Part shown: one piece after another, positions 1,111-19,887 of the stretch
Layout: each line of letters starts with the position of its first letter
How positions within the stretch are numbered: position 1 is the first letter of the stretch
From: a virus
Reading direction: 5' to 3' (one strand)
IMG/VR virus record: IMGVR_UViG_3300020419_001248
Location: 1-20,614 of that record
DNA: 20,614 nucleotides
Made by a program: the position numbers and the translations under genes
The notes under the pieces: model-generated
Database searches by the model: none
Seen by the model: only the letters and a program-made list of their open reading frames with translations
Told to the model about the DNA's origin: nothing

Positions 1111-1904
1111 CACCATCATACACAATACAATTTCCTGAAGTTAAAAGAGTAGTAGGTCATTATTTTACAAAGTTGTATGACCATGATAGTCTTATAAAAG
1201 ATAGACATGATATACAAGATAGATTTATTGAAAACTTTGTACCTTGGCTTAATAAAGGTCACATAAAATTTAAAGGCCTAAAAGACTTTAAACATGTTTA
1301 TATTACAAATGGCGTATCTGATTTTATCTATACATCTATGATAGAGCATAGTTTAAGACCGATAGTAATAAAAGATGACTACCCAGCATATGTTGAACAT
1401 GCTAAAATATTGGCTAAGTCTAATATTGGTTTAAGAAATAGAACAAACTATTTGAGTTTACCATTTTATAATACAGCAAATGAACATGAAAAGACAAATG
1501 ACTTATTAAAACAAGAGAATACATTTGTTGACCTTGCGTGGGCAGGTGGTTCTGGTCTTAAAAAAACATATGATTTAAGCAAAGTATCATACGCTTCTTT
1601 TAGTTTTAGTAAAATGTTTGGTATTCAATATCATAGAGTAGGCATATCCTTTTCTAAAAAACCAATTAGGACTTTAGAAATGTATAAGAAAGAGGCGTAT
1701 GTTAACCTTGCAGGTATAGGCCTAGTAAATCAATTAATGTCATTTTCACCATCATATTTCTATGATAAATATAGGGAGATTGCAAATACTATTTGTGATA
1801 AATTAGATATAGAAACCACACCTAGTTTATGGTTTGGTTTAAAACATAACAAGAAAGTACCATTATTAAATGAATGGATTAGAATAAATGCGAACGGAAA
1901 CTAA
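1101..1904 (+). CDS. Minimal fold-type-I PLP-dependent aminotransferase-like protein
   Basis: This looks like a reduced member of the aspartate-aminotransferase superfamily. Seen: VYITNGVSDFIYTSM (about 66-80), resembling the glycine-rich start of the PLP site; an aspartate in FVDLAWAGG (D144) where these enzymes hold the pyridine nitrogen; then SFSFSKMFGIQYHRVGISF, with lysine K171 in the usual SFSK context and R179 after it, as in SK..G.R.G of class-I/II enzymes. A WIRIN segment near the C-terminus may carry the substrate-carboxylate arginine. At 267 residues it is far below the usual 380-420, with compressed N- and C-terminal parts, so it may be a divergent phage form or act only with a partner. 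It overlaps the class-III aminotransferase before it by 10 bases and the hydroxylase-like gene after it by 17 bases. Superfamily call is fairly good; reaction unknown. Confidence 0.6.
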   Translation: MYLTPSYTIQFPEVKRVVGHYFTKLYDHDSLIKDRHDIQDRFIENFVPWLNKGHIKFKGLKDFKHVYITNGVSDFIYTSMIEHSLRPIVIKDDYPAYVEHAKILAKSNIGLRNRTNYLSLPFYNTANEHEKTNDLLKQENTFVDLAWAGGSGLKKTYDLSKVSYASFSFSKMFGIQYHRVGISFSKKPIRTLEMYKKEAYVNLAGIGLVNQLMSFSPSYFYDKYREIANTICDKLDIETTPSLWFGLKHNKKVPLLNEWIRINANGN

Positions 1905-2655
1905 AGAATTTTTTGAATATACTAAAAGTCTACCTTTTAAAGATATAACTCATTTTTGGGATATACCTTATAAAGAAATGTTAGATGAAATAAAAACGGT
2001 TGATGAAAGTTATTGGCGAAGACCTTTTGACGCTGATAATGACCAGATAGATAGAATGAAACTAGATGATTCTAAAAGTGTTAATCATTATCCTGGTATG
2101 AAAGGTGACCTTATTGAAGCACATGGTTGGAAGAGTTTATGTTTTTTAAATGAAACTGGTGATAGTAAAGACCAAATTACAAGATTTCCACCTGTATTTA
2201 ATACAGCAGGTGATTACAAAGAAACTTTAAAATATTTTCTTAACAATAGAAAATGGACAAATGTATCTGATTTTAGTCCTACATTAGTTAAATTTTTTAA
2301 AGAAGTTATAAGCAAATATATGCATGTAGGCCAAATATTTGTTACTAGATTAGAAAGTGGAGGTGTTATAACTGAACACAATGATATACCTGAAGATAGT
2401 AAACATTTATTAGATGGCGAACAAGTGCATATGTTTGATATGTTGAATACATTTAACTTATGTTTAAATCATGTTAAGTCATGTTATAGTGTATTTGACA
2501 ATAAAGTAATGCCAGCATATGATGGTTGTTTAAGATGGACAAATGTTGGTAAAAAACATTGGGTTGTTAATATGAATAGAAAACCACAATATCAAATTAT
2601 ATGGCAAGGTATATACAAAAAACAATTTAGACAACTGGTAATGGAGAATAAATAA
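1888..2655 (+). CDS. Aspartyl/asparaginyl beta-hydroxylase-like Fe(II)/2OG dioxygenase
   Basis: Fe(II)/2-oxoglutarate (2OG) dioxygenases hydroxylate or otherwise oxidise a substrate while decarboxylating 2-oxoglutarate. The C-terminal half carries the expected triad: H164-x-D166 in VITEHNDIPED, H224 in GKKHWVVNMNR, and R231 seven residues later, a good 2OG-carboxylate binder. The phrase order (HND, then a strand, then a VGKKHWVVN-like strand followed by NRKPQYQI) resembles the aspartyl/asparaginyl beta-hydroxylase family more than prolyl hydroxylases. The N-terminal 130 residues are aromatic and acidic with no domain I recognise. The start lies inside the end of the previous gene, giving a 17-base overlap. 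Known members of this family act on protein or peptide Asp/Asn, but the target here is inferred only from family. Confidence 0.68.
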   Translation: MRTETKEFFEYTKSLPFKDITHFWDIPYKEMLDEIKTVDESYWRRPFDADNDQIDRMKLDDSKSVNHYPGMKGDLIEAHGWKSLCFLNETGDSKDQITRFPPVFNTAGDYKETLKYFLNNRKWTNVSDFSPTLVKFFKEVISKYMHVGQIFVTRLESGGVITEHNDIPEDSKHLLDGEQVHMFDMLNTFNLCLNHVKSCYSVFDNKVMPAYDGCLRWTNVGKKHWVVNMNRKPQYQIIWQGIYKKQFRQLVMENK

Positions 2656-2659
2656 TAAC

Positions 2660-3328
2660 ATGGCACAAATTAACAATCACGAATTTTATGGTTTAGATAC
2701 AGCATATGTAGAAAAACACAAAGAATTATTTGACTTTTTTGAAGGTCAAAATTTAGACATTGAAATAAATGATGACTTTGAACAATTAAAAACTATACTA
2801 ACAAGTAAAGACAAAGACGATTACGCTTACGACTTTGACCCAGCGTTTGAAACTTTTTTAGATAATTCTACAGGTTTTATTTTATATTTAAGATATAACA
2901 ATGAAGTAGTTGCTACTTACGCAGCTAAAAAATTATCCTTACCTGTTTTCATAGAAGGTATGAAATTAAAATATCCTGGTAATTATGATACTATTGATAA
3001 TTTCCCTGGTCAATCAGCTTATAGTTCATGTCAATGGGTATCTAAAGACCATAGAGGTAAAAAGTGGGGAAGAGTATTAGACCATTTGAAAAAGAATTTA
3101 TGTTTTGACCTTATGAAGTGTGAAACAAATTTTGCTATACATAAATCAGATTTAAGAGATTATCATGTAAATCATTTAGCATATTCTAATAGTAAAAGAC
3201 TAGCAGTTATACCAAACGGTGATGTTGGTGGTGCAGGTGAAGTTATTGACAAAGAATATTGGATAGCATATTCTTCAATTACAGAATGGGCAGATAAACA
3301 AAGTGAAGTTAAAACATTATACACTTAA
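2660..3328 (+). CDS. GNAT-like N-acetyltransferase, divergent
   Basis: GNAT enzymes transfer an acyl group from acyl-CoA to an amine. The middle of the protein has a strand pair typical of the fold (FILYLRYNNEVVATYAAKK, about 73-92), then SCQWVSKDHRGKKWGRVLDHL (about 123-143), which resembles GNAT motif A: a beta-strand, an RGK-type loop for the CoA pyrophosphate, then a helix. The consensus glycine in R-x-x-G-x-G is a lysine here, so the match is imperfect. The N-terminal 60 residues are acidic and unlike any domain I know. It starts 4 bases after the preceding oxygenase gene and overlaps the next gene by 26 bases, so it belongs to the same translational unit. Acetyl acceptor unknown. Confidence 0.5.
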   Translation: MAQINNHEFYGLDTAYVEKHKELFDFFEGQNLDIEINDDFEQLKTILTSKDKDDYAYDFDPAFETFLDNSTGFILYLRYNNEVVATYAAKKLSLPVFIEGMKLKYPGNYDTIDNFPGQSAYSSCQWVSKDHRGKKWGRVLDHLKKNLCFDLMKCETNFAIHKSDLRDYHVNHLAYSNSKRLAVIPNGDVGGAGEVIDKEYWIAYSSITEWADKQSEVKTLYT

Positions 3329-3914
3329 AAATTTTTTATCTAGTCAAGAGATAGATTCTTTTAATTATAACATTAAACAAGAATTTAAATCCGATACTGG
3401 CGATTTAACATTATATCATCAAAAAATATCTACCTCTATTATAGAAAAAATTAAAAAATGTATAGGCGAATTTACTATTAGACACTCTCACATATACAAT
3501 TTAAAACAACCTTATAGATTACATTGTGATTCAGGCCAAGAAAATAATTCTTACTATACAATTATAGTGCCTTTAGATAAAAATCCTCAAGGTGGTCTTT
3601 TTATTATGAATCAATGGTCAGATAAAGCATATAGTTTAGATGATTACTACACACAAAATATTCAATCAGTTTTAAATTTTGAAGAAAGAAAAGAAAAGAT
3701 AAATGAATTTAATCCTAACATATCTCTACCTGACACAATAGATTTTAAACATATTAAAGATAAGAGAGGATTTTCAGTAAAAGATTATATTGATTATGAA
3801 TATAATAAAGCTATAATGTATCCTGGCAAATATTATCATTGTAGTCAAAATATAAAAAACTTTACAGGTAAAAAATCTTTAGCTATATTTACTAATGAAA
3901 CACTACACACTTAA
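3303..3914 (+). CDS. Small Fe(II)/2OG oxygenase-like protein
   Basis: A 203-residue protein with the layout of a compact double-stranded beta-helix oxygenase. Seen: H74-x-D76 in YRLHCDSG, a strand YYTIIVPLD followed by GGLFIMNQWS, the distal H179 in MYPGKYYHCSQN, and a basic K190-K191-S192 group 11-13 residues later, where a 2OG-binding Arg or Lys is expected. The start is GTG, the first in-frame start codon available before the N-terminal KHYTLKNFLSSQEID; this N-terminus resembles the common F(L)..eeid opening of phage 2OG enzymes. It overlaps the gene before by 26 bases and the gene after by 20 bases, and both overlaps share a near-identical 18-base sequence (separate repeat entries). Substrate unknown. 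Confidence 0.6.
   Translation: MKLKHYTLKNFLSSQEIDSFNYNIKQEFKSDTGDLTLYHQKISTSIIEKIKKCIGEFTIRHSHIYNLKQPYRLHCDSGQENNSYYTIIVPLDKNPQGGLFIMNQWSDKAYSLDDYYTQNIQSVLNFEERKEKINEFNPNISLPDTIDFKHIKDKRGFSVKDYIDYEYNKAIMYPGKYYHCSQNIKNFTGKKSLAIFTNETLHT
3312..3329 (+). repeat. Junction repeat copy 1 (gene-overlap sequence)
   Basis: aaacattatacacttaaa lies in the overlap of the GNAT-like gene and the GTG-started oxygenase-like gene. It matches the sequence at 3898-3915 at 16 of 18 positions. In one frame it ends the upstream protein (TLYT then stop); in another it encodes the KHYTLK near the N-terminus of the downstream protein. Confidence 0.8.
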
Positions 3915-4446
3915 ACCTTATGATTTAGAATCTAAACATCTATCTCAATTACATAATATTATTGAAAAAGTTGTAAGTGAGAAGAAAGATGAATATTGGG
4001 ATAATTATACAGACTATTCAGTATTTGACCAAACTATGATTACAATAGGTATGGTTGATGATAAAGTAAAATGTTTTTCATCTATATATACAAGAGAGTT
4101 TTATGGTAATTATGTATATAGATTATTTAATAGATTTTTAGTTGATGATGATATAAGAGAAGAAGGTGGCTCTAAATCATATAAGGGTGAACACCGATTT
4201 TTTGATATGATATATCAACAAATAGAATTTGTCAAGACACTACAACCTAAATTTTATTTTATGTCAAGACAGAGAAAAAATACTAGATGGTTAAAATGGT
4301 ATTTCAATAAGTTCAACAAACAATATGACACAAATCTAGTGGTGTCGGATGAACAATATAGAGTGTGTAATGGTAGTAATTATGATTGTTGCCAGACACT
4401 AATATATCCAAAAGAAATGAAAATACCATTTGAAAAATTATTATAA
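3895..4446 (+). CDS. Protein of unknown function, weakly GNAT-like
   Basis: I do not recognise this 183-residue protein with confidence. Seen: a first half with helix-rich LSQLHNIIEKVVSEKKDEYW, a strand pair MITIGMVDDKVKCFSSIYTREFY (about 43-65), then VYRLFNRFLVDDDIR and a basic helix region around FYFMSRQRKNTRWLKWYF (about 120-137). The strand, arginine-rich loop and helix order is compatible with a degraded GNAT fold, and its neighbour two genes upstream is GNAT-like, but no clear CoA motif is present. Its N-terminus, MKHYTLKPYDL, resembles that of the preceding oxygenase-like protein because of the repeated junction sequence. It ends the first enzyme cassette, and a late-promoter box overlaps its stop codon. 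Confidence 0.45.
   Translation: MKHYTLKPYDLESKHLSQLHNIIEKVVSEKKDEYWDNYTDYSVFDQTMITIGMVDDKVKCFSSIYTREFYGNYVYRLFNRFLVDDDIREEGGSKSYKGEHRFFDMIYQQIEFVKTLQPKFYFMSRQRKNTRWLKWYFNKFNKQYDTNLVVSDEQYRVCNGSNYDCCQTLIYPKEMKIPFEKLL
3898..3915 (+). repeat. Junction repeat copy 2 (gene-overlap sequence)
   Basis: aaacactacacacttaaa repeats the 3312-3329 sequence with two t/c differences. It sits in the same relation to its genes: it holds the stop of the upstream gene and the early KHYTLK codons of the downstream gene, here at the oxygenase-like/unknown junction. Confidence 0.8.
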
Positions 4447-4449
4447 ATA
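4442..4449 (+). promoter_or_regulatory. Phage late promoter box TATAAATA
   Basis: An exact TATAAATA, the late-promoter -10 motif of T4-like phages read by the phage late sigma factor. It overlaps the stop codon of the preceding gene and lies 16 bases before the start at 4466, with an AAGGAG ribosome site between (4454-4459). It would open transcription of the virion block. Confidence 0.65.
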
Positions 4450-4465
4450 GTTAAAGGAGATAATT

Positions 4466-4672: not shown

Positions 4673-5014
4673 ATGGCCGCTATAGCAAACCTGACAATAG
4701 ACCAAGGCGCAACATTTAGTTCGGATGTAACGGTCAAAGATTCAAATAGTAATGCTTTTGATTTAACAGGTTATACAGCATCCGCTAAGATGGCCAAAGG
4801 TTATCAGTCAACAAAAACAAGAACCTCTATCACCTGTACCATATCCGCTAGCGCTACGACAGGTGTTATTACATTATCATTAACGGCAGACCAAACTTCT
4901 AATTTAGAAGAAGGTAGATATGTGTATGATTTAGAGATTTTACAGACTTCTTCAAGCACGGTTACCAGAGTAATTGAAGGTATAATTACGGTACGACCAC
5001 AAGTAACTACTTAA
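4673..5014 (+). CDS. Small beta-rich virion protein, BppU-N/Ig-like
   Basis: 113 residues, almost all short Ser/Thr-rich beta strands. The order 'LTIDQGATFSSDVTVKDSN', then 'FDLTGYTASAKMAKGY', then 'GVITLSLTADQTSNLEEGRYVYDLEI' is the pattern of N-terminal baseplate-upper-protein (BppU) or phage Ig-like domains, which often anchor fibres to the baseplate. No signal peptide or membrane segment. It starts directly at the previous stop and is followed by a 42-base gap holding the next late promoter. Likely a tail or baseplate decoration protein. Confidence 0.55.
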   Translation: MAAIANLTIDQGATFSSDVTVKDSNSNAFDLTGYTASAKMAKGYQSTKTRTSITCTISASATTGVITLSLTADQTSNLEEGRYVYDLEILQTSSSTVTRVIEGIITVRPQVTT

Positions 5015-5030
5015 TTCAACTCTTTTTTGT

Positions 5031-5038
5031 TATAAATA
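5031..5038 (+). promoter_or_regulatory. Phage late promoter box TATAAATA
   Basis: Exact TATAAATA in the gap between two structural genes, 18 bases before the ATG at 5057, with an AAGGAG ribosome site at 5044-5049. Spacing suits a start of transcription just upstream of the ribosome site. Confidence 0.7.
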
Positions 5039-5056
5039 TACACAAGGAGAGAATTA

Positions 5057-5305: not shown

Positions 5306-5315
5306 GGAGTTTTAA

Positions 5316-7022
5316 ATGGCAACGGTAATTCAGATAAAAAGAAGTTCAGCTACATCAGCCCCAGCTACGCTGAAACTTGGTGAATTAGCCTATACTTTCG
5401 GTACAGGTACACAAGGTAATAATGGAGATAGATTATTTATTGGTGAGGGCGGTGTTGATGGAAATGGTGACGCAAATAATGTAACCGTCATAGGCGGTCA
5501 ATATTTTTCAGACATGTTAGACCATGTCGCAGGAACACTTACAGGTAGTTCAGCTCTTATAGCAGATTCAAACTTGGCGATTGACCAAGCAATTGTTGGT
5601 AATTCAGCAACCGTAGGTGGTACGGTAAAATTAAATGAGGGTACAAATAACGGTACAAACTTTATTGGTTTGAAAGCTCCTAACGCCGTTACTACTACAA
5701 CTACATTTACTTTACCAGACGGAGACGGAACATCAGGACAATTTTTAAAAACAGATGGTTCTGGTAATTTAGACTTTGCAACCGTAAATCAGTTTATAAA
5801 CTTAGCAGGTAATTCAGGAACAGATACTTATAATACTGCTGAAACTTTAACATTTGAAGGTTCAGGTGGTTTAGTTCAAACGGTAACAGATAATAAAGTA
5901 ACCGTAACTGCTACAGGATTAACAAATTCAAACTTATCAGGTAGTGCGGCTATTTCAAATGCTAACTTAGCAAATCCTACAACTACTTTAGGTTCATCTA
6001 CATTAACATTAGGTTCAACAACAACTGACATTGCAGGATTAACTTCATTAGTTATTGATAGTATTACAATCAACGGCTCTACAATGTCAACAGGTGCTGG
6101 TAATACAGATATTACCATGTCGCCACACGGCACAGGTACGGTAAAAGTTCCTAGTGGTTATGAAGATAGAGCAGGTTTTACAACTGACTCTCTTGCAAAC
6201 AAAGCTTATGTTGACCAAGTTGCACAAGGTTTAGATACTAAACCATCAACAAGAGTTGCTACGACAGCAAACTTAGCGGCTTCTTATTCAAACGGTACTG
6301 ATGGTGTTGGTGCAACATTAACAGCAAGTTCAAACGGTGCATTATCAATTGACGGTGTATCGCCTACAACAAATGATAGAATTTTAGTTAAAGACCAATC
6401 AACAGCTGCTCAAAACGGTATCTATGTTGTAACTACGGTTGGTGATGGTTCAAATCCTTTTGTGTTAACAAGAGCAACTCCTGAAGACCAACCAAGTGAG
6501 TTAACAGGTGGTTCTTTTGTATTCGTAGAAGAAGGTACTGCTAACGGAGATAACGGATATGTATTTACTCATACAGGTGCTCCAACTTTTGGTACAACTG
6601 CTTTAGATGTAGCACAATTTTCTGGTGCAGGTCAAATTACAGCAGGTGCAGCTTTAAGTAAAACAGGTAATCAATTAGATGTAGAAGTAGATGGTTCATC
6701 CATTGAAGTAAATTCAGACGCATTGAGAGTTAAAGCACTAGGTGTTACAAACGCAATGTTAGCTGGTAGTATTGACGGTGCAAAAATTGAAAACTTTGTA
6801 TTTACAGATGAAAGTTCTACACAAGGTGCAGTTACAATTGGTAACCCTATGGAATTTTTAGCAGGTGAAGGTATTAATACAACTTCATCTGGTTCTACTT
6901 TAACAATTGCAGGTGAATTAGCAAGTACATCAAACATAGGTGTGGCTTCATTTAATTCTGGCAATTTCACGGTTTCTTCAGGTGATGTAACCGTAACAAC
7001 GATTGATGGAGGTTCATTCTAA
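5316..7022 (+). CDS. Tail fibre protein with Mtd-N-like head
   Basis: A 568-residue Thr/Ser/Gly/Asn-rich fibre. Residues 1-50 (IQIKRSSATSAPATLKLGELAY and the following GDRLFIGEGG) resemble the N-terminal attachment domain of Bordetella-phage major tropism determinant and many marine fibres. A middle module at about 303-433 (QGLDTKPSTRVATTANL, DRILVKDQSTAAQNGIYVV, FVFVEEGTANGDNGYVFTH) is a recurring module of marine T4-like fibres. The C-terminal part is repetitive beta (ALSKTGNQLDVEVDGSSIEV) and ends in TIDGGSF. Likely trimeric and on the virion surface. It overlaps the next gene by one base (TAATG). No template repeat or reverse transcriptase for diversification is in the window. Confidence 0.85.
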   Translation: MATVIQIKRSSATSAPATLKLGELAYTFGTGTQGNNGDRLFIGEGGVDGNGDANNVTVIGGQYFSDMLDHVAGTLTGSSALIADSNLAIDQAIVGNSATVGGTVKLNEGTNNGTNFIGLKAPNAVTTTTTFTLPDGDGTSGQFLKTDGSGNLDFATVNQFINLAGNSGTDTYNTAETLTFEGSGGLVQTVTDNKVTVTATGLTNSNLSGSAAISNANLANPTTTLGSSTLTLGSTTTDIAGLTSLVIDSITINGSTMSTGAGNTDITMSPHGTGTVKVPSGYEDRAGFTTDSLANKAYVDQVAQGLDTKPSTRVATTANLAASYSNGTDGVGATLTASSNGALSIDGVSPTTNDRILVKDQSTAAQNGIYVVTTVGDGSNPFVLTRATPEDQPSELTGGSFVFVEEGTANGDNGYVFTHTGAPTFGTTALDVAQFSGAGQITAGAALSKTGNQLDVEVDGSSIEVNSDALRVKALGVTNAMLAGSIDGAKIENFVFTDESSTQGAVTIGNPMEFLAGEGINTTSSGSTLTIAGELASTSNIGVASFNSGNFTVSSGDVTVTTIDGGSF

Positions 7023-7231: not shown

Positions 7232-7614
7232 TGACTACGGTAATAAAACCAAAAAGAAGTGAAACTACAAGTCAGATACCTGGCTCAGGAGTATTGGCAG
7301 TTGGTGAATTAGCAATGAATGTTGCTGATGGTAAATTTTTTACTAAAACATCTGGTGGTACGGTTAAAGAAATGGGTGGTGCTGGTTCTGTAACACTACA
7401 AAATGTTACAACAAATAGTGCAACTACAACAAATGATATTTTACTTGACCAAGGTGCTAATTTAATATTTGAAGGTAACTTAGCAAATGCATACGAAACC
7501 ACTTTAACAGCCGTAGAACCAACAACTGATAATACGGTTTCATTACCTAATCAATCGGGTGTTTTAGCAACTGAAGGTGATAATCTTGCTTTTAGTATTG
7601 TATTTGGAGGATAA
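7231..7614 (+). CDS. Short fibre-like structural protein with the same head domain
   Basis: 127 residues. Its N-terminus (TTVIKPKRSETTSQIPG, then LAVGELAMNVADGKFFTK) is a second copy of the head domain type seen at the start of the 568-residue fibre, a 'kRs..t...P..l..GELA.n..dgk.f' pattern. Then comes a beta-rich stretch with LTAVEPTTDNTVSLPNQSG, typical of phage fibre linkers, and a short IVFGG end. Likely a small fibre or base-attachment protein. One-base overlap with the gene before; the next gene starts two bases after its stop. Confidence 0.6.
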   Translation: MTTVIKPKRSETTSQIPGSGVLAVGELAMNVADGKFFTKTSGGTVKEMGGAGSVTLQNVTTNSATTTNDILLDQGANLIFEGNLANAYETTLTAVEPTTDNTVSLPNQSGVLATEGDNLAFSIVFGG

Positions 7615-7616
7615 TA

Positions 7617-7967
7617 GTGGCAAGTACATTTAAAAATGCAGGTCTTGATGTAGGAGTTTTAGATACATCAGCAGGAGATATTTACACAGCTTCTGGTTCT
7701 GGCGTAACTGCCGTTATTCATGCAGTTTACATTTCTAATTTAAGTTCTACAAACGCAGCTAAAGTAAACATTAAAGTTACGGTAGATGGTGGTTCCACAT
7801 TTAGACATGTGGGTAGAAGTTTAAATGTATCTGCTAACAATACATTGATTATGGATAAACCAATTAATTTAGAAAACGGCGATAAGCTTAGAATATATGC
7901 AGACCCTAATCCAGATAGTTCATCTGTTGATGTAGAGGCATATGTAAGTATATTGGAGATTAGTTAA
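7617..7967 (+). CDS. Beta-sandwich virion protein, unknown
   Basis: 116 residues beginning with GTG; the reading begins ASTFKNAGLDVGVLDTSAGD and the GTG sits two bases after the previous stop with GGAGG just upstream (7606-7610), which supports this start. Strands such as AVIHAVYISNLSS, VNIKVTVDGGSTF and VDVEAYVSILEIS give a small jelly-roll or Ig-like protein with a repeated 'v.v.vdgg' phrasing common to phage head or tail decoration proteins. No enzymatic residues stand out. One-base TAATG overlap with the next gene. Confidence 0.5.
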   Translation: MASTFKNAGLDVGVLDTSAGDIYTASGSGVTAVIHAVYISNLSSTNAAKVNIKVTVDGGSTFRHVGRSLNVSANNTLIMDKPINLENGDKLRIYADPNPDSSSVDVEAYVSILEIS

Positions 7968-8572: not shown

Positions 8573-8576
8573 TTTG

Positions 8577-8584
8577 TATAAATA
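8577..8584 (+). promoter_or_regulatory. Phage late promoter box TATAAATA
   Basis: Exact TATAAATA in the only gap before the 1171-residue fibre gene, 20 bases upstream of its ATG, with an AAGG ribosome site between. Confidence 0.7.
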
Positions 8585-8604
8585 GTAATATTACAAGGTA
8601 AAAA

Positions 8605-12120: not shown

Positions 12121-12125
12121 TAAAG

Positions 12126-12133
12126 GATAAATA
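12126..12133 (+). promoter_or_regulatory. Possible weak late promoter box GATAAATA
   Basis: One mismatch to TATAAATA in the gap before the glycine-rich fibre. It ends only 5 bases before the ATG at 12139, so a transcript begun here would be nearly leaderless. More likely the stretch just carries the AAAGG ribosome site. Listed with low weight. Confidence 0.2.
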
Positions 12134-12138
12134 ATAAT

Positions 12139-13794
12139 ATGTCAGATTTACAAGATTTTACGCAGAAAAATAGAAGACACACAGGTAATGCTGGTATTAC
12201 AGCGTCTAGCACAGGTTCAGGTGATGGTGGCAGAGTAAATGAAAAAGGTCGTTTAAGATTTAATGACGATACGGACTTGATGGAATATTACAATGGTTCT
12301 GAATGGAAACCTATTGACTCACCTCCTGTTATTACAACTATTGCAGTTGATGGTGGTACTGCTGGTACTACAGCAACGATTGATAACGAAGCTTCAGGCA
12401 CATTTTCTCTTGCAGTAAACGGTTCTTTATTTGATACAACAGGTGCTGCTGTTACTTTAGTTGGTACAGCTGAAACAATATCTGCTAATTCAATAACAAG
12501 AAATAGCGCAAATTTATTGACCGCTGTATTTACTAATTCAGCAGTTGATATTTCTAATAGCCCTTACACGGTTAAAGTAACTAACGGTTCAGGATTATCT
12601 GCTGAATTAGCAGACGCTATATCTGCTGACAGCACGACACCAACATTTACAAACGCAGCTGATACAACCGTTTCATTGTTTGATAGTGGTAGAGATGTTG
12701 GTATTGCAGCTGCCGATTTATGTGGTGCTTCAGGCGCTACTAACTTTGCTGTTACAATAGGTTCATTACCAGCAGGTCTTTCAATGACATCATCCACAGG
12801 TGCAATCACAGGAACAGCAAACGCAGTTGGCACAGATACAACATCAACATTTACGGTTACGGCTACAGGTGATGACGCAACGGCAACAAGACAATTTAAG
12901 ATTACGATTAAAGCTCCAAGTATAACATCTATAACTTCAACAGGTCCAGGTACTTTTTCAGTTCCTACAGGAGTTTCTACATTGCAGTTATTATTAGTTG
13001 CAGGTGGTGGTTCAGGTGGAAGTTCATTAGGAAGTGGCGCAGGTGGTGGAGGTATGTTAGAAGGAACGCTAACGGTAACACCGGGTTCAACTATCGCATA
13101 TGATATGGGAGCTGGTGCTGCTCAAGGTTCGCCTAATTCTGATTATCATAGTGGTAATTATGGTTCAGATACAACATTTGGACCTATTCCAGGTCCTGGC
13201 GCAACAGCAACTGCTCTTGGGGGCGGTTATGGATGTGGTCACGGAGGTGGTTCTCCAAAAGGTGACGGAGGAAAACCTCAACAAGCTACTCCAAATATTA
13301 ATATAGGTGGCACAGGAGGTTCCGGCGGTGGAACAGGAAGTGCAGACGGCCCTCAAACACAATATAGAGGTGGTTATGGAAACCAAGGTGATAGTGCCGG
13401 ATTAACAGGTTATGGAAATGACGGCGGAAACGGCGGTGGCGGTAACTCTCAAGGTTCACATAATGGTGGCGGCGGCGGTGGTGCCGGCGGTGCAGGTGAA
13501 GACGCAGGTACTGACGGTACAGGTCAAGGTGGTGACGGCGGAGCAGGAAGAGTTTCAAATATAACAGGTTCTCCGGTAACTTACGCAGGTGGCGGAGGAG
13601 GTTCTTACTATAATGAAGGCCCTCACGGAAGTAAAGGTGTTGGTGCAGCCGGTCCAGGTGGTGGAACAGCAGGCGTTCCTTCAGGAAGGTCAAGTGCTGG
13701 TGGTGCAAACACAGGTGGCGGTACAGGCTGTGGAGGATATCCAAGCGGCGGTGGCGGAACAGGTGGTCCTGGAATAATAGTTATTAAAATTTAA
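12139..13794 (+). CDS. Tail fibre adhesin with Ig-like domain and glycine-rich tip
   Basis: 551 residues. The N-terminal part contains GRLRFNDDTDLMEYYNGSEW (about 35-54), a short strand-turn phrase common to fibre ends. Residues about 195-257 form a putative Ig domain (He_PIG type: IGSLPAGLSMTSSTGAITGT, then STFTVTATG). From about 270 to the end is a glycine-rich domain beginning GPGTFSVPTGVSTLQLLLVAG and continuing as long Gly/Ser/Asn runs with His and Tyr, ending GPGIIVIKI. This matches the glycine-rich sandwich tips of phage adhesins, for example gp38-type and related receptor-binding tips, where Gly-rich loops form the receptor contact. The DNA of this half is visibly richer in GGC/GGA and G+C than its neighbours. 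Likely a receptor-binding protein; receptor unknown. Confidence 0.8.
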   Translation: MSDLQDFTQKNRRHTGNAGITASSTGSGDGGRVNEKGRLRFNDDTDLMEYYNGSEWKPIDSPPVITTIAVDGGTAGTTATIDNEASGTFSLAVNGSLFDTTGAAVTLVGTAETISANSITRNSANLLTAVFTNSAVDISNSPYTVKVTNGSGLSAELADAISADSTTPTFTNAADTTVSLFDSGRDVGIAAADLCGASGATNFAVTIGSLPAGLSMTSSTGAITGTANAVGTDTTSTFTVTATGDDATATRQFKITIKAPSITSITSTGPGTFSVPTGVSTLQLLLVAGGGSGGSSLGSGAGGGGMLEGTLTVTPGSTIAYDMGAGAAQGSPNSDYHSGNYGSDTTFGPIPGPGATATALGGGYGCGHGGGSPKGDGGKPQQATPNINIGGTGGSGGGTGSADGPQTQYRGGYGNQGDSAGLTGYGNDGGNGGGGNSQGSHNGGGGGGAGGAGEDAGTDGTGQGGDGGAGRVSNITGSPVTYAGGGGGSYYNEGPHGSKGVGAAGPGGGTAGVPSGRSSAGGANTGGGTGCGGYPSGGGGTGGPGIIVIKI

Positions 13795-13805
13795 GGATTA
13801 AAAAA

Positions 13806-14042: not shown

Positions 14043-14046
14043 GTCT

Positions 14047-14054
14047 TATAAATA
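14047..14054 (+). promoter_or_regulatory. Phage late promoter box TATAAATA
   Basis: Exact TATAAATA in the 48-base gap between the fibre block and the downstream enzyme operon, 36 bases before the ATG at 14091; a GAGG ribosome site lies at 14080-14083. I found no further TATAAATA on the + strand from here to the window end, so this box probably serves the whole enzyme operon. Confidence 0.7.
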
Positions 14055-14090
14055 ATTTATACTATTACAGATGATTAGTGAGGTTTTAGC

Positions 14091-14837
14091 ATGGATACAA
14101 AAAATGAATATTGGTTATTCAATTCAATAATTTCTAAACAAGATTGCCAGAAAATAATAGATAGAGGTTTAGAGCAACTTGACCTTTTACAAAAAGAAGG
14201 TTTTGACTCTAATGCAACAACCTTTGGTGATGAACAAAAATCAGACACTAGAAAAATCTCTCAACAAGATTTAACAACTCAACAGATAAAAGAAAAAAAC
14301 ATTAATAAAAATGATGTTTATATAAGAGATAGTAACATATCTTGGTTAAGTGACCAATGGGTATATGATTTAATATGGCCTTGGGTTTTAAAAGCAAATA
14401 TTTCTGCTGGTTGGAGATATGATTTTGATTATGCTGAGCCTGCTCAGTTTACAATCTATAATAAAGACCAGTTTTATGGTTGGCATAGTGATGGTCCAAA
14501 TGATTATAATAATGTAAAAAGAAGAGAAATACCTGGTGTATATGATAAAAACCATTGTGATAAACATTTATTTACACCATTAAATGAATTGGTAGGTAAA
14601 GTAAGAAAATTATCAATAACACTAATGTTGTCTGACCCAAATGATTATGAGGGTGGAAATTTAAAATTTGATTTTGGAGCTCATAGTAAAAATAGATATA
14701 AAGAAATATCAGGTGGCCTAGTAAATCAAGGTTCATTAATAGTTTTTCCTAGTTATAAATTTCATTGTGTAACTCCTGTTACAAAAGGCACTAGATATTC
14801 TTTAGTAATTTGGTTTAATGGAAGGCCTATGAAATGA
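14091..14837 (+). CDS. Fe(II)/2OG oxygenase, PKHD-hydroxylase-like
   Basis: 248 residues with a textbook 2OG-oxygenase core. Seen: QFTIYNKDQFYGWHSD with H132-x-D134, a strand KLSITLMLSDPNDYEGGNLKF (the usual 'L.y.L......GGel.f' phrase), distal H225 in FPSYKFHCVTPVTKGTRYS, and R235-x-S237, the RxS pair that holds 2-oxoglutarate. This is the layout of PKHD-type/prolyl-hydroxylase-like enzymes. The N-terminal FNSIISKQDCQKIIDRGLEQ helix is also typical. First gene of the late enzyme operon; it overlaps the next gene by four bases (ATGA). Family evidence is strong; target (protein residue or small molecule) unknown. Confidence 0.85.
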   Translation: MDTKNEYWLFNSIISKQDCQKIIDRGLEQLDLLQKEGFDSNATTFGDEQKSDTRKISQQDLTTQQIKEKNINKNDVYIRDSNISWLSDQWVYDLIWPWVLKANISAGWRYDFDYAEPAQFTIYNKDQFYGWHSDGPNDYNNVKRREIPGVYDKNHCDKHLFTPLNELVGKVRKLSITLMLSDPNDYEGGNLKFDFGAHSKNRYKEISGGLVNQGSLIVFPSYKFHCVTPVTKGTRYSLVIWFNGRPMK

Positions 14838-15475
14838 TAAATGAAACAAAAAAATACTTTGATGAAAATGGTTATGTTGTTATTCAAAATTTTGTAAAAC
14901 CAGAAATGACTTCTCTTTTATATGAATATATGAAAAATAAAGCTCGTAGAGAAATGTTTAATGAGGCTTATTATCCAGAATTATTTAATATTCATATAAA
15001 CGGTAGATTTAATGACGAACAAGCTCCAGGAGCTTATTCATTATATGGTGACCCTTTAATGGATGCGTTATTAAAAAATTCAGCAAATTTTGTGTCTAAA
15101 ACAATTGAAATTGATTTAGTGCCAACATATTCTTATTGGAGATTATATATTACAGATAATGATTTAAAAAAGCACAAAGATAGACCTAGTTGTGAGTATT
15201 CAACAACTTTGTGTATTGGTTATGATGGAAGTAATTTAGATGATAAAAATTATAATTGGCCAATATTTATTAAATCTCTTAAAGGAGAAGAAAAATCTGT
15301 CTTACTAAAACCAGGAGATATGGTCATTTATAAAGGATGTGATGTTGAACATTGGAGAGATAAATATGAAGGATTAAATCATGCTCAGGTTTTTTTACAT
15401 TACAATAAAAAAAATGGGGAGTATGGAAATATAAATGACGGAAGAGAATTTTTAGGGCTTCCTTCAAAAACTTAA
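14834..15475 (+). CDS. Fe(II)/2OG oxygenase-like protein, divergent
   Basis: 213 residues. Opens YFDENGYVVIQNFVKPEMTS, the usual N-terminal strand and helix of phytanoyl-CoA-dioxygenase-like proteins. Seen: H114-x-D116 in LKKHKDRPSCEYSTTLCIGY, LKPGDMVIYKG, and distal H173 in DVEHWRDKYEG. After it comes LNHAQVFLHYN: where an Arg is usually found to bind 2-oxoglutarate there is only His/Gln, so cofactor use may differ or another residue may serve. Translationally coupled by ATGA to the oxygenase before it. The two form a pair, but they are not obviously recent duplicates. Confidence 0.65.
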   Translation: MINETKKYFDENGYVVIQNFVKPEMTSLLYEYMKNKARREMFNEAYYPELFNIHINGRFNDEQAPGAYSLYGDPLMDALLKNSANFVSKTIEIDLVPTYSYWRLYITDNDLKKHKDRPSCEYSTTLCIGYDGSNLDDKNYNWPIFIKSLKGEEKSVLLKPGDMVIYKGCDVEHWRDKYEGLNHAQVFLHYNKKNGEYGNINDGREFLGLPSKT

Positions 15476-15492
15476 ATTAAAAGAGGAAAAAA

Positions 15493-15879
15493 ATGGATAT
15501 TAAAACACAAAAAAATATGAAAACTTATGGCGGTGAAAAATTTAATTTCGCTGAGTTGAATAACGACCATACTAAAGCGGTAAAAGAAGCCTGTGAAATT
15601 TTAAAATCACAAGGTGTAGATGAAAATATTGTAAAAGACTTACAATTAAAATTTAAGGTAAAAGAATTACCAAAATACAATATAAATGAAAGTCCTATGT
15701 TTCAGTTTTGTAAAAAACTTAATATTGGTATGATGGAGCAAGGCTTCGTAACGGTTAAAGAAAATGGTGAAACCACACAATATCCTGTGGGTATTTTATG
15801 CGAAGACATTAGAATATTAAATAAATTATTTGAAAGTATTTTTAATGCTGGTGTAGAAGCCGCAGACCAAATTAAATAA
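15493..15879 (+). CDS. Small protein of unknown function within the oxygenase operon
   Basis: 128 residues, mostly helical by look: FAELNNDHTKAVKEACEILK, then VDENIVKDLQLKFKVKELP, and a C-terminal helix DIRILNKLFESIFNAGVEAA. A beta hairpin around GFVTVKENGETTQYPVGIL sits between. No catalytic motif, signal peptide or membrane span. It has a good AGAGG ribosome site of its own and small gaps on both sides (17 and 24 bases), unlike the overlapped genes around it. I cannot assign a family. Confidence 0.5.
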   Translation: MDIKTQKNMKTYGGEKFNFAELNNDHTKAVKEACEILKSQGVDENIVKDLQLKFKVKELPKYNINESPMFQFCKKLNIGMMEQGFVTVKENGETTQYPVGILCEDIRILNKLFESIFNAGVEAADQIK

Positions 15880-15903
15880 TAATTTTATTTAAGGCTTATT
15901 GTT

Positions 15904-16515
15904 ATGAAAGGTGATAAAAATTTTACATATTTATTTGGTAGTCCTATATGGATTTATCAAATTACATCTATTGATAAGAATATATTAAAAAATTATATTC
16001 TTGATTTAAGAAATAAAGATAACAATGGTCAAGTTCTTTCTAATAGTGGTGGAGGTTGGCATTCACACAATATACCTTTAGATACACCAGAGTTTAAATC
16101 TTTTTATTTTCTTATAACAGATGTAATGAATTCTTGTTTTTCTGAATTAAATGGTAAAACTGATAAATATAAAGTGGTCATAGAAGATTGTTGGGCAAAT
16201 GTAAATACAAAAGGTTCTTTTAACTGGCCTCATATACATACCGGATTTTTGTCAATGGTTTATTATGTAGAAGCAGATGAAGATACAGGAGATATTCAAT
16301 TTTTACACCCCTCTAAACTACAATCATTAAATTGGGATTTTGATATGTTTAACAATGAAAATATAACATCAACAGACGCAAGTTGGAAATTTAATCCTGT
16401 TACGAATAGATGTTTAATTTTTCCTAGCTGGTTAGAACATAAAGTAAATGCTAACAATACAAATAAAAAGAGAATTAGTATTTCGTTAAATACAAAGTTA
16501 GAAAAAATATTATGA
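15904..16515 (+). CDS. 2OG-oxygenase-like protein of the TIGR02466 type (HxH variant)
   Basis: 203 residues. The opening TYLFGSPIWIYQI and the centre (DCWANVNTKGSFNWPHIHTG, then FLSMVYYVEAD, GDIQFLHP) match TIGR02466-type putative 2OG-Fe(II) oxygenases of marine phages and bacteria, whose core reads roughly 'W.n....g..n..H.H....sgvyYv'. H110-x-H112 stands where most 2OG enzymes have HxD. Distal H179 is in FPSWLEHKVN and R190-x-S192 follows, giving the 2OG-binding RxS pair. Its last bases overlap the halogenase gene by ATGA, tying the two together in expression. A substrate shared with the halogenase is possible but only inferred from position. Confidence 0.7.
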   Translation: MKGDKNFTYLFGSPIWIYQITSIDKNILKNYILDLRNKDNNGQVLSNSGGGWHSHNIPLDTPEFKSFYFLITDVMNSCFSELNGKTDKYKVVIEDCWANVNTKGSFNWPHIHTGFLSMVYYVEADEDTGDIQFLHPSKLQSLNWDFDMFNNENITSTDASWKFNPVTNRCLIFPSWLEHKVNANNTNKKRISISLNTKLEKIL

Positions 16516-18092
16516 AAAATGTAAAAAGTATTATAATTTTAGGTGGTGGTAGTGCAGGTTGGATGACAGCCTCTACACTTATAAAAGAATTTCCTGACAA
16601 AGAAATTACCGTAATAGAAAGTCCTAATACTCCAATTATTGGTGTAGGTGAAAGTACAATTGGTGGTATAAAATATTGGACATCTTATCTAGGTATAGAT
16701 GATACTGAATTTTTTAAATATACAGACGCTACTTACAAATTAAGTATTAGATTTGAGGACTTTTATAAAAAAGGTGATGGTGGTTTTCATTATCCTTTTG
16801 GTAAATCAATTTATAATAGTGATGGTGGTTATAATGATTGGATATTAAAAAAACACATTTATCCAGAAACTCATAGGTCAGATTTTGCTGATTGTTTTTT
16901 TCCTCAAATGGCTTTAGTAAATAATAACAAACTTTTTGATAATGAGAAAAATGAATTACCTTTTAACTTTAGAGAAAATACAGCATATCATTTTGACGCA
17001 ACAAAATTTGGTTCTTTTTTAAAAGATAGATATTGTAAACCTAGAGGTGTAAAACATGTTGTTGATGATATAAAATCAGTAGAGGTTTCTAAAGATGGCA
17101 TACACTCGTTAGTTTCTGATAGTAATATGGGAGTTGGAAATAACAAATATAAAGCAGATTTATATTTTGATTGTACAGGTTTTAAATCATTATTATTAGG
17201 TAAATCATTACAAGAAGAATTTGAATCTTATTCAGATATGTTACCTAATAACTCAGCATGGGCAACTAGATTGCCTTATAATAATAAAAAAGAAGATATA
17301 AATTGTTATACAAATTGTACAGCCATTGAAAATGGTTGGGTGTGGCAAATACCTTTATGGTCTCGTTGGGGCACAGGTTATGTTTATTCAGATAAATTTG
17401 TAGATGATGAAACAGCTTTAAAAGAATTTAAAAATCATTTAGATAAAAAAGGCCAAGATTATAGTAACGCAGAGTTTAAGAAAATTAAAATGCGTGTTGG
17501 TATACATAAGAGATTATGGGTTAAAAATGTTGTAGGTATAGGTTTAGCGGCTGGGTTTATTGAACCTTTAGAAAGTAATGGTTTGTTTTCAGTACATGAA
17601 TTTTTAATGAGGTTTATTAGAAACGCACAGAGAGATATCATTACACAATGGGATAGAGATAATTTTACCTTTCAATGTAAAAAATTATTTAGAAATTTTG
17701 CAGAATTTGTTGCTATGCATTACGCAATGTCGAATAGAGATGATACAGAATATTGGAGAGCTAACGCTAATAAAGAATGGGAACCGGCTCTAGTAAATTT
17801 ATCTCCTTCATTTAAAGAAGGATTTTTAAATGCAGCCAATCAAAGAGATTGGCAAAGAAATTTTCCAGATGGTGGTTTACCTTGCATAGCGTTTGGCATG
17901 GAGTGGTATCCTTTAGACGCACCTACTATTAAATACCTTGATGGTAATAATGATGAACAATTTAAACAAAGGTATCACGATTCGGTTGTTAGTCTAAATA
18001 GTAGAAAAAATCAATGGGATTTAGTGGTAAAAGATAAACTAAGCTTTTATGATTATCACAAACAAAAATTTTATAATGATAGGAATGATTAA
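16512..18092 (+). CDS. Flavin-dependent tryptophan-halogenase-like protein
   Basis: Flavin-dependent halogenases use reduced FAD and oxygen to make hypohalous acid and install chlorine or bromine on an aromatic ring. Seen: the FAD-binding GGGSAGWM (11-18), the IGVGESTIGG loop, a lysine in ATYKLSIRF (K76) aligning with the catalytic Lys79 of PrnA, the halogenase signature W-x-W-x-I-P in NGWVWQIP (276-281), and AAGFIEPLESNGLF with E351 matching the catalytic glutamate (Glu346 of PrnA). The length, 526, equals that of PrnA-type enzymes (about 520-540). The key residues are all intact, so activity is plausible; it needs a flavin reductase that is not in the window. Free tryptophan, a peptide or another phenol/indole could be the substrate. 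ATGA overlap with the gene before, one-base TAATG overlap with the gene after. Confidence 0.9.
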   Translation: MKNVKSIIILGGGSAGWMTASTLIKEFPDKEITVIESPNTPIIGVGESTIGGIKYWTSYLGIDDTEFFKYTDATYKLSIRFEDFYKKGDGGFHYPFGKSIYNSDGGYNDWILKKHIYPETHRSDFADCFFPQMALVNNNKLFDNEKNELPFNFRENTAYHFDATKFGSFLKDRYCKPRGVKHVVDDIKSVEVSKDGIHSLVSDSNMGVGNNKYKADLYFDCTGFKSLLLGKSLQEEFESYSDMLPNNSAWATRLPYNNKKEDINCYTNCTAIENGWVWQIPLWSRWGTGYVYSDKFVDDETALKEFKNHLDKKGQDYSNAEFKKIKMRVGIHKRLWVKNVVGIGLAAGFIEPLESNGLFSVHEFLMRFIRNAQRDIITQWDRDNFTFQCKKLFRNFAEFVAMHYAMSNRDDTEYWRANANKEWEPALVNLSPSFKEGFLNAANQRDWQRNFPDGGLPCIAFGMEWYPLDAPTIKYLDGNNDEQFKQRYHDSVVSLNSRKNQWDLVVKDKLSFYDYHKQKFYNDRND

Positions 18093-18685
18093 TGATAAGT
18101 AATATAGAAAATTTTATAGGTGTATTTGATAATGTTTTTGATGAACAATATTGTAAATCAATAATAGACCATTTTGAAAAATTAAATAATTTTCATAAAA
18201 CTCAAAAAAGAGCTGACATTACTGGACATCCTGCTATTGAACAACAAAATGATGTTTATTATCCTATAGGTGAAAATGACTCTACTTTTATTAGTGCTAA
18301 TGATTCATTTTTATTAGAATTTAATTTAAAATTACAAGATTGCTATAAATTATATGCAAAAAAATATCCTATATTAGATGGTATGATGAAACATAGATTA
18401 AATTTAGATGTTAAATTACAAAAAACAATTCCAGGAGAAGGTTATCATGTGTGGCATTGTGAACATGATGGTGTACCATTTGGTAAAAGACTATTTTTAG
18501 TAATATTATATCTTAACGAAGTTTCTGGTGGTGAAACAGAATTTTTATACCAACATAAAAGAGTTGCACCTAAAACAGGTAGACTTATGATTTGTCCTTC
18601 AGGTTTTACGCATACACATAGAGGTAATCCTCCTTTAGATGGACTTAAATATATTTTAAATGGATGGATAGAGTTTATAGAATGA
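18092..18685 (+). CDS. Fe(II)/2OG oxygenase, prolyl-4-hydroxylase-like
   Basis: 197 residues. Opens IENFIGVFDNVFDEQYCKSI, a standard 2OG-enzyme N-terminal helix. The core reads GYHVWHCEHDG: H122-x-E124 is the likely metal pair (HxE in place of HxD), as in marine phage members with 'Y..WH.E'. Then LFLVILYLNEVSGGETEFLYQH, the usual strand with GGeT.F, PKTGRLMICPSGFTHTHRG with distal H174 or H176, and K186 in GLKYILNGW as the probable 2-oxoglutarate anchor. All landmarks are in order, so an active oxygenase is likely. Coupled to the halogenase upstream by a one-base overlap and to the next gene by ATGA. Confidence 0.8.
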   Translation: MISNIENFIGVFDNVFDEQYCKSIIDHFEKLNNFHKTQKRADITGHPAIEQQNDVYYPIGENDSTFISANDSFLLEFNLKLQDCYKLYAKKYPILDGMMKHRLNLDVKLQKTIPGEGYHVWHCEHDGVPFGKRLFLVILYLNEVSGGETEFLYQHKRVAPKTGRLMICPSGFTHTHRGNPPLDGLKYILNGWIEFIE

Positions 18686-19383
18686 AAAGAAAAATAGTAT
18701 ATTGGGCTCCTTGGTTTGTTCCACAAGAAGAACATCATTGGAACATGTTGTTCATAGAGCCTCAAAAATTGTTAACTAAAGTAGTCAAAGATGTATCATC
18801 TACAAGTGATGTAAGATTAAAAGCTATGATAAGATGTCCTGCTTTTTCTAGTATTGGTAAAAATACCTTCTTTGTTGAAAATCCTATGACTACTGAATTT
18901 GATATAGTAGATGGAGAAATTAAATACAAAGGAGATAATTTTTATTATTGTACATTATCAAAAGGCAAAAGCACATTTAAATATGGATTATCTTATATAT
19001 TTTTTTCTGAAGATGATTTAGAAATAATGATGACAGCTCCACACTTTTCTCAAACTGAACATACAAATTATGCTAAATTGGTACCTGGAAAATTCAATAT
19101 ATCAAAATGGTTTAGACCTGTAAATTTAGAAATGTTATTATATGATAATTATTTCAAAATGCCTGAACATGAACATATGGCTTATTTTCAATTTTTAACA
19201 GACGATAAAGTTGAATTAAAAAGATTTGAACTAAATGAAACTTTAAGAAAAATATCAGATACATGTTCTACCGTTAGTGATTGGTGGAGAAATGTTCCTT
19301 TAATTAATAGATATGATAGATTTTTAAAAACAAAAACTAATAGACTTGTAATGAAAGAAATAAAAAGACAATTGGTGGAATAA
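18682..19383 (+). CDS. Unknown protein of the oxygenase/halogenase operon
   Basis: 233 residues when started at the ATG of the ATGA overlap at 18682. An in-frame ATG at 18664 would add six residues inside the previous gene, but the coupled start fits the operon's habit. Begins KRKIVYWAPWFVPQEEHHWN and includes RCPAFSSIGKNTFFVEN, a long strand-rich middle (GLSYIFFSEDDLEIMMTAPH), and DNYFKMPEHEHMAYFQFLTD with a His/Glu cluster near residue 168. The C-terminus is a basic helix. Two Trp/Phe-rich segments suggest a beta-sandwich. Similar proteins sit beside oxygenases in marine T4-like phages as far as I recall, with no function known. I cannot name a family. Confidence 0.55.
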   Translation: MKRKIVYWAPWFVPQEEHHWNMLFIEPQKLLTKVVKDVSSTSDVRLKAMIRCPAFSSIGKNTFFVENPMTTEFDIVDGEIKYKGDNFYYCTLSKGKSTFKYGLSYIFFSEDDLEIMMTAPHFSQTEHTNYAKLVPGKFNISKWFRPVNLEMLLYDNYFKMPEHEHMAYFQFLTDDKVELKRFELNETLRKISDTCSTVSDWWRNVPLINRYDRFLKTKTNRLVMKEIKRQLVE

Positions 19384-19887
19384 ATGATAAAAATATACGA
19401 TAATAAAGTACCTTTTCATATTATGCACGATATACACGAATTTGTAATAAATTCAAGGTTTTATATTACGGGTTGGAAAGATAAAGATTATGTCAACAAA
19501 CACTCTATATATTCAGATTGGTCAATTGATGATTTAAAAAATGCTGGATTATATTCTTACCTAGAAGAAATACCATCTGTTGATTTTAGTAAATGGTATA
19601 AAACTATGGTAAATCTAAGCCACCCTAGTGACCATTACTACACACACACTCATGGAGAAAATGATTATGTTTTATTATATTATGTAAATTTAGAATGGCG
19701 TGATGAGTGGCATGGTGAAACTTTATTTTATGACCCTTTAAATTTACAAAAAATAGAGTTTGCTTCATCTTTTATACCAGGCAGAATATTACAATTTGAT
19801 GGCATACAACCTCATTCAATTAGACCACAATCAAGTGTTGGTCCTCAATATAGATTTACAATATCAAATTTTTTTAAGAAGAAATAA
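19384..19887 (+). CDS. Small 2OG-oxygenase-like protein (HxH variant)
   Basis: 167 residues, the smallest oxygenase-like protein here. Seen: VNLSHPSDHYYTHTHGEND with H88-x-H90, the strand YVLLYYVNLEW then EWHGETLFYDP, the distal H144 in FDGIQPHSIRP, and R157-x-T159 in QYRFTIS as the 2-oxoglutarate-binding pair. The HxH in place of HxD matches the other HxH protein at 15904-16515, so the two may share a subfamily, although their N-terminal parts differ. It starts directly after the previous stop, and heme oxygenase starts directly after its own stop. Iron binding with HxH is not certain. Confidence 0.65.
   Translation: MIKIYDNKVPFHIMHDIHEFVINSRFYITGWKDKDYVNKHSIYSDWSIDDLKNAGLYSYLEEIPSVDFSKWYKTMVNLSHPSDHYYTHTHGENDYVLLYYVNLEWRDEWHGETLFYDPLNLQKIEFASSFIPGRILQFDGIQPHSIRPQSSVGPQYRFTISNFFKKK

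Follow-up and report, generated by a model that had tools for sequence, protein, structure and literature searches.

Two modules of 2OG-oxygenase-like genes flank the tail-fibre block of a marine T4-like phage

Seven oxygenase-like genes at the locus

The DNA analyzed here, an IMG/VR virus record (IMGVR_UViG_3300020419_001248, positions 1 to 20,614; the whole stretch of 20,614 nucleotides is called the window), carries seven 2-oxoglutarate (2OG)-oxygenase-like genes on the two sides of a tail-fibre block, together with a gene for a flavin-dependent halogenase (Table 1). The closest DNA match in the phage collection, and the sole near one, is Pelagibacter phage Mosig EXVC030M, which matches in the fibre genes with 80% nucleotide identity. 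By its sequence, the phage is a T4-like pelagimyophage of the marine SAR11 (Pelagibacter) type, and the window is part of its host-recognition cluster, described as a hypervariable island (PMC7029224). Synteny with Mosig and other relatives places the window in this island, which contains the fibre genes and ends at the neck gene; the window itself ends at the heme oxygenase, short of the neck gene. Mosig has the same layout, with enzymes upstream of the fibres and six 2OG-type genes downstream (one annotated as ferrochelatase and one as DNA endonuclease V), followed by heme oxygenase, PcyA and the neck genes.

A sequence-only reading of the window had called the seven oxygenase-like genes, named here by their first nucleotide, and the call holds: every open reading frame begins where it had been placed, and all seven are 2OG-Fe(II)-like with metal-ligand residues conserved among relatives. 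In a whole-protein search, 14091, 15904 and 18092 passed the Pfam cut-offs. Because the other four score under the gathering cut-offs, we collected relatives from IMG/VR and assessed how well the ligands are kept in 6 to 87 distinct relatives of each family, with few relatives for 3303. The ligands are 100% conserved in 14091 (H132xD134..H225..R235, 48 rows), 14834 (H114xD116..H173, 55 rows), 1888 (H164xD166..H224, 11 rows) and 3303 (H74xD76..H179..K191, 7 rows). They are kept in 9/9 close homologs of 15904 (H110xH112..H179..R190), in 18/18 of 18092 (H122xE124..H176..K186) and at 94-100% in 19384 (H88xH90..H144..R157). Judged from these alignments, the conservation across families exceeds what chance motif spotting would give.

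The HxD/E..H ligand set is present in 14091, 14834, 18092, 3303 and 1888; the fold was modelled for 14834, and the other genes were assigned by sequence family. In 15904-16515 and 19384-19887, HxH..H..R replaces HxD/E..H..R and is conserved at 94% or more, with a few relatives keeping the Asp, and a three-histidine metal site is possible in both. An Arg or Lys follows the distal His in 14091, 15904, 18092, 19384 and 3303. In 1888, residue 234 is an invariant Gln in all phage copies versus Arg in the bacterial homolog, a protein that scores over the cut-off for Asp_Arg_Hydrox (PF05118, 3e-7). An Arg at this position is the usual 2-oxoglutarate binder, and therefore the co-substrate of 1888 or its binding may differ. 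In 14834, no Arg or Lys stands at the usual spacing after the distal His, and invariant Arg occurs elsewhere.

By sequence, 14834 is the weakest of the seven (PhyH 0.07, under cut-off). Structure prediction, which had been suggested for each oxygenase, gave an AlphaFold2 model of 14834 with a pLDDT of 94.7, whose best PDB match is SnoN (Z 17.5) and which matches HIF-type and bacterial prolyl hydroxylases (PHD2, P4H) with Z about 16.5. The predicted structure of 14834 is a clear 2OG fold. The model of 3303 was poor (pLDDT 57) and was discarded; this protein matches DUF6445 at 0.007, under cut-off, and one of its homologs matches 2OG-FeII_Oxy_3 (PF13640) at 1e-4. 14091 also matches the Fe2+-dependent dioxygenase family NF003974 (6e-17, under cut-off). 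Profile searches of the 1888 and 14834 families against PDB sequences returned chance matches only, and tblastn of 1888 and 3303 against the phage collection returned no match. The best pair among the seven has E = 0.11, so these genes did not arise by tandem duplication, in agreement with the earlier description of them as a diverse set.

The ferrochelatase label that 14834 carries in related records was rejected, as the confident model matches 2OG oxygenases throughout and not the ferrochelatase fold. Some PHROG labels appear to be wrong: phrog_2954 (“ferrochelatase”) has a 2OG-oxygenase fold, and proteins labelled via phrog_274 (“DNA endonuclease V”) cluster with 2OG families and show HxD/E/H..H motifs. 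Candidates for such mislabelling are 14834-15475 and 19384-19887 of the window and, in the locus L001, 22738-23508 and 23508-24020.

Table 1 Features of the window (numbers after family names are match E-values)
Feature	Position	Strand	Evidence
Class-III aminotransferase	16..1110	+	PF00202 2.3e-51
Putative fold-type I aminotransferase	1101..1904	+	Mosig homolog labelled putative aminotransferase; no Pfam hit
Asp/Asn-hydroxylase-like 2OG oxygenase	1888..2655	+	PF05118 (Asp_Arg_Hydrox) 0.013, under cut-off
GNAT-like protein, weak call	2660..3328	+	Acetyltransf_1 0.12; kept in cassette
2OG-oxygenase-like protein, optional cassette member	3303..3914	+	HxD..H..K invariant; homolog PF13640 1e-4
Conserved upstream-cassette protein, no assigned function	3895..4446	+	31% identity to neighbour of 1888 homolog, Oligoflexia MAG
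TATAAATA motif before fibre block	4442..4449	+	Motif match
Tail-fibre assembly-like protein	4673..5014	+	phrog_3304 1e-23
TATAAATA motif before 5057 gene	5031..5038	+	Motif in 13/13 homologous upstream regions
Tail-fibre protein, conserved backbone gene	5316..7022	+	PHROG tail fibre; fibre block 80% nucleotide identity to Mosig
TATAAATA motif before large fibre gene	8577..8584	+	Motif in 40/80 homologous upstream regions
Large tail-fibre protein, four CBM_5_12 stretches	8605..12120	+	phrog_9851 2e-197; PF02839
Glycine-rich fibre-tip (adhesin-like) protein	12139..13794	+	PF21722 1e-10; up to 46% Gly per 100 aa
TATAAATA motif, 36 nt before oxygenase-halogenase block (first gene 14091)	14047..14054	+	Motif match
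2OG oxygenase, PKHD/YbiX-like	14091..14837	+	PF13640 (2OG-FeII_Oxy_3) 1.4e-13
2OG oxygenase, labelled “ferrochelatase” in PHROGs and related records	14834..15475	+	AlphaFold2 fold; HxD..H
Small conserved block protein, no assigned function	15493..15879	+	phrog_10937 4e-14; recurs in block
2OG-like protein, HxH..H..R, TIGR02466 type, optional member	15904..16515	+	PF13759 (2OG-FeII_Oxy_5) 3.4e-19; TIGR02466 over cut-off
Flavin-dependent halogenase (predicted), VirX1 type	16512..18092	+	PF04820 4e-104; VirX1 6qgm 5e-102
2OG oxygenase, HxE..H..K	18092..18685	+	PF13640 (Oxy_3) 1.1e-8; phrog_61 2e-42
Conserved block protein, no assigned function	18664..19383	+	phrog_17480 8e-23
2OG-like protein, HxH..H..R, FlmC-like	19384..19887	+	PF13640 (Oxy_3) 4e-5 and NF052475 4e-11, both below cut-off
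Heme oxygenase, neighbour, judged outside block	19888..20472	+	PF01126 6e-22

Two modules with different neighbours

The seven genes had been taken for one set sharing an operon with the halogenase and forming a late modification system. A single set was not borne out: the upstream pair and the downstream five belong to two modules that differ in their neighbours, and in the relatives checked the upstream module has no late motif in front of it. The shared operon with the halogenase applies to the five downstream genes and not to the two upstream ones.

The downstream module (14091-19887) consists of 14091, 14834, 15493, the optional 15904, the halogenase, 18092, 18664 and 19384, and its genes mostly overlap or nearly do so. 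In relatives, the tip is followed by the oxygenases, then by the halogenase if there is one, and next by heme oxygenase, PcyA and the neck genes. Individual block genes are gained or lost, and several relatives lack 15904. HTVC008M, G016 and L299 carry the entire block in inverted orientation with respect to fibres and neck genes (L238 6403-9682, L248 9354-12819 and L299 1212-6057). The predicted halogenase contains the FAD-binding GxGxxG motif, the WxWxIP motif and the catalytic Lys and Glu of the VirX1 type, which align with VirX1 as GGGSAG, GWVWQIP, the lysine of ATYK and the glutamate of EPLES. The heme oxygenase was judged to lie outside the block because it directly follows the fibres in relatives without oxygenases. 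The same observation weakens the idea that it supplies iron to the oxygenases, in a comparison whose loci were themselves fetched via the heme oxygenase, so that its own distribution is not sampled by them.

The motif TATAAATA is the core of T4 late promoters. The window has four copies of it, all on the + strand and at gene boundaries, a count that by itself is not above chance (4 observed versus 5.1 expected by shuffling). In relatives, it precedes 15/68 genes of the 14091 type and 6/17 of the 15493 type, either of which may head the block, and it was found before 0/41 halogenases and 0/58 genes of the internal 19384 type. Before the first three upstream-cassette genes, it was found in 0/25 cases in relatives. 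Among the inverted blocks of HTVC008M, G016 and L299, it stands upstream in L299 only. A general promoter and terminator scan gave a result near chance. The observed motif and gene order support the view of the downstream block as a T4-type late transcription unit, with promoter activity predicted from them. Late expression, as claimed for the whole set, is thus indicated for the downstream block only, by the motif at 14047-14054 and its pattern in relatives.

The upstream cassette has a fixed order in relatives: class-III aminotransferase, second aminotransferase-like gene, 1888, GNAT-like gene, optional 3303 and 3895. The sequence-only reading had noted a GNAT-like protein and two aminotransferases here; the calls of the GNAT-like protein and of the second aminotransferase are weak (Table 1). 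Across the window and its relatives, the cassette adjoins at least three different fibre tips: the glycine-rich one of the window, one of the (459)(286)(250)(557) kind (L015/L241) and one of the (478)(498) kind (L166/L245). On a contig of an Oligoflexia metagenome-assembled genome (MAG; L349 132-3971), relatives of 3895 and 1888 lie side by side and are followed by two ATP-grasp genes, an arrangement that suggests chemistry of amino acids or peptides more than an action on fibres. One of the two ATP-grasp genes belongs to the R2K clade, and a gene for a peroxiredoxin-like protein also follows. The cassette (1888, 3303, the two aminotransferase-like genes and the GNAT-like gene) more likely makes or modifies an amino-acid-derived small molecule or peptide. 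An ectoine-type pathway, which would combine a class-III aminotransferase, a GNAT protein and a 2OG hydroxylase, was considered and rejected: no ectoine family is among the best NCBIfam matches, and the window has no ectoine synthase.

Association of the downstream block with a glycine-rich fibre tip

Seven such genes had been called a very high density for 20 kb. The density is real but normal for T4-like marine phages such as Mosig, HTVC008M, S-CREM1 and S-SCSM1. By annotation and relabelling, Mosig has 16 2OG-type genes, nine of them in the host-recognition island, and HTVC008M has about 18, five of them between the fibres and the neck. Cyanophages usually carry 1-5 2OG genes per genome, with 24 in S-SCSM1 and 10 in S-CREM1 (PMC3037559, PMC9602691, PMC9964418).

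To relate the block to the fibre type, we compared loci fetched via the heme oxygenase, plus those of Mosig, HTVC008M and G016, and counted 2OG-type genes from the tip to the heme oxygenase or neck; a tip was called glycine-rich if it reached 35% Gly or more in 100 amino acids (aa). Two or more oxygenases were found in 24/25 loci with a glycine-rich tip versus 4/23 without one (Fisher p about 2e-8, a value that ignores relatedness). The link persists through the whole-block inversion in HTVC008M, G016 and L299 and in other fibre architectures (L326, L095). Among the cyanophages picked for a related halogenase, 7/8 have, in this order, one or more Gly-rich tips, a protein of ~135-220 aa or a 2OG gene, one or more halogenases and several 2OG genes. 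We also placed 2OG matches relative to the Gly-rich gene in 15 phage genomes with a PF21722 Gly-rich gene, using rotation as the control and taking the counts as lower bounds. At least 46 of at least 203 2OG matches lie within 8 kb of the Gly-rich gene, with 21.4 expected by rotation (p = 0.001). In the seven genomes that had not been picked for a halogenase, the numbers are at least 21 versus 10.3 expected (p = 0.02). The proposal that the set tracks fibre type therefore agrees with the raw counts for the downstream block, an agreement confounded by descent, and fails for the upstream cassette with its several tips.

A number of observations weigh against a functional link between block and tip. 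The tip categories were drawn up after the data were seen. Trees of heme oxygenase and gp13 contain two supported independent pairs that differ in tip; these contrasts are too few, and thus shared descent could explain the association. Two loci whose tip is not Gly-rich carry four oxygenases, and L292 and L284 have four to seven oxygenases with a Gly-poor homolog of the tip. In the 15 genomes, at least 157 of at least 203 2OG matches sit more than 8 kb from the Gly-rich gene, and S-RIM32, S-SCSM1 and P-SSM2 have a Gly-rich gene without a nearby 2OG match among the matches listed. In S-B64, the halogenase gene is surrounded by replication genes, and the halogenases of G016 and P-SSM2 are far from any Gly-rich gene. 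The window contains no flavin reductase for the halogenase, and no report of a modified fibre residue was found in the searchable literature.

Glycine-rich tips with a halogenase contain more His (3.35 vs 0.76%) and Tyr (4.1 vs 2.95%) than those without. This composition was not used as evidence because most halogenase-bearing tips are from cyanophages or one pelagiphage clade.

Possible roles of the two modules

Our best explanation, held tentatively, is that the downstream block encodes enzymes that tailor the glycine-rich, adhesin-like tip at a late stage, for which its position, the timing motif and the co-occurrence are suggestive. The operon would be transcribed late from its own T4-like promoter at 14047, and its enzymes would act late in infection on the tip protein encoded alongside (12139-13794). 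The oxygenases may hydroxylate side chains in exposed tip loops and the halogenase, where present, may halogenate them, and such modification could tune receptor binding or protect the tip. The upstream module would work separately on its amino-acid-derived product.

It is quite possible, and nearly as likely for the downstream block as tip tailoring, that both modules have other targets, namely molecules of the host or small molecules (amino acids, peptides and lipids, or the host envelope, which might be altered to prevent superinfection), with the fibres adjacent only because the island collects genes. According to PMC7029224, this island also contains glycosyltransferases, radical SAM and further biosynthesis genes, and that of Mosig has TauD, a methylase, an FMN reductase, a peroxiredoxin and a carbamoyltransferase. 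The aminotransferases of the upstream cassette and the ATP-grasp ligases beside its bacterial relative fit such a role as well, as does the location of most 2OG genes outside the fibre region among the matches listed. However, the downstream block tracks the glycine-rich tip and not the island in general, and it stands behind its own late-promoter motif, as the fibre genes do. Auxiliary metabolism, in which the oxygenases would consume 2-oxoglutarate and thereby alter host nitrogen signalling or energy while the halogenase protects from antibiotics, has been put forward for cyanophages (PMC3037559, PMC2984593, PMC9964418). It appears improbable here: lowering the 2-oxoglutarate pool leaves both the several unrelated families side by side and their adjacency to the glycine-rich tip unexplained, and the NtcA argument is specific to cyanobacteria, whereas this phage is nearest to Pelagibacter phages.

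Gene-by-gene gain and loss, whole-block inversion and strong sequence turnover would also be seen if the genes were passengers in a hot spot, exchanged and held near the fibres by recombination without a shared function. We give this little credence, since the metal-ligand residues are intact in all families, phages that have diverged from one another share the gene order, and most loci with other tips have no oxygenases. Modification of nucleic acids, whether AlkB/TET-like or as base hypermodification, is very improbable. Earlier work connects phage 2OG genes with the repair or modification of nucleic acids (PMC3037559, PMC7029224), but the best family and fold matches here are PKHD/prolyl-hydroxylase, Asp_Arg_Hydrox, TIGR02466 and PhyH-type. 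No AlkB/TET-like match is among the matches listed, an absence that proves little.

Several known systems resemble the locus. The pelagimyophage host-recognition cluster (Zaragoza-Solas 2020, PMC7029224) is the same neck-adjacent variable island with fibres and many non-structural genes, in Mosig and HTVC008M likewise; the accessible text stresses glycosyltransferases, whereas the oxygenase-halogenase block and its link to a Gly-rich tip are features of the window not described there. T4-like cyanophages carry 2OG arrays and prnA (Sullivan 2010, PMC3037559; S-SCSM1, PMC9602691; S-CREM1, PMC9964418), with many copies of the same families (pfam13640, 13661, 13759, 05721 and TIGR02466), and in S-CREM1 a run of 2OG genes stands behind a halogenase, as in the window. 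Those arrays were interpreted as host-metabolism genes, whereas the window has seven copies in 20 kb of a Pelagibacter-type phage. A phage halogenase has been treated as a possible antibiotic-protection gene (PMC9964418; also PMC2984593, which calls the idea speculative).

The closest solved structure to the halogenase is VirX1 of cyanophage Syn10 (PDB 6qgm; PMC8407142), with which the window protein shares the usual motifs and from which it is well diverged over its full length. In Syn10, the VirX1 gene likewise lies downstream of genes for Gly-rich proteins and has 2OG genes after it. The enzyme favours iodide and takes large phenols and other aromatic compounds as substrates, and the accessible part of this review does not name its native substrate (PMC8407142). 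The T-even gp38 adhesins are also Gly-rich proteins at the distal end of a fibre operon; the likeness is in composition and position, as the window tip was matched via PF21722 and not via the gp38 family. A limited, incomplete search of the open-access literature found no description of a link between tip, halogenase and oxygenases.

It is tempting to extend tip tailoring to marine T4-like phages at large, although we consider this extension unlikely. Their genomes would include a movable operon for finishing the adhesin, in which unrelated 2OG oxygenases together with a VirX1-type halogenase would hydroxylate and halogenate the glycine-rich tip, so that receptors would be recognized via side chains outside the genetic code. 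VirX1 would then have its native role in this process. If tip tailoring is true, host recognition would use chemically modified residues that are invisible to sequence-based host prediction. In these phages, few enzymes without an explained role are as common as 2OG oxygenases and the halogenase, and VirX1 is in use as a biocatalyst with no natural substrate given in our sources; the tip association names a concrete candidate substrate in phages that are already cultured.

Three further observations concern the surroundings of the block. In L271, a relative that has a glycine-rich protein, the position of most oxygenases is occupied by a radical SAM protein (7293-8609). The CBM_5_12 stretches of the large fibre protein (8605-12120) are carbohydrate-binding. 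The phycobilin genes heme oxygenase and PcyA precede the neck genes in these phages; their closest cultured relative infects Pelagibacter, which is non-photosynthetic.

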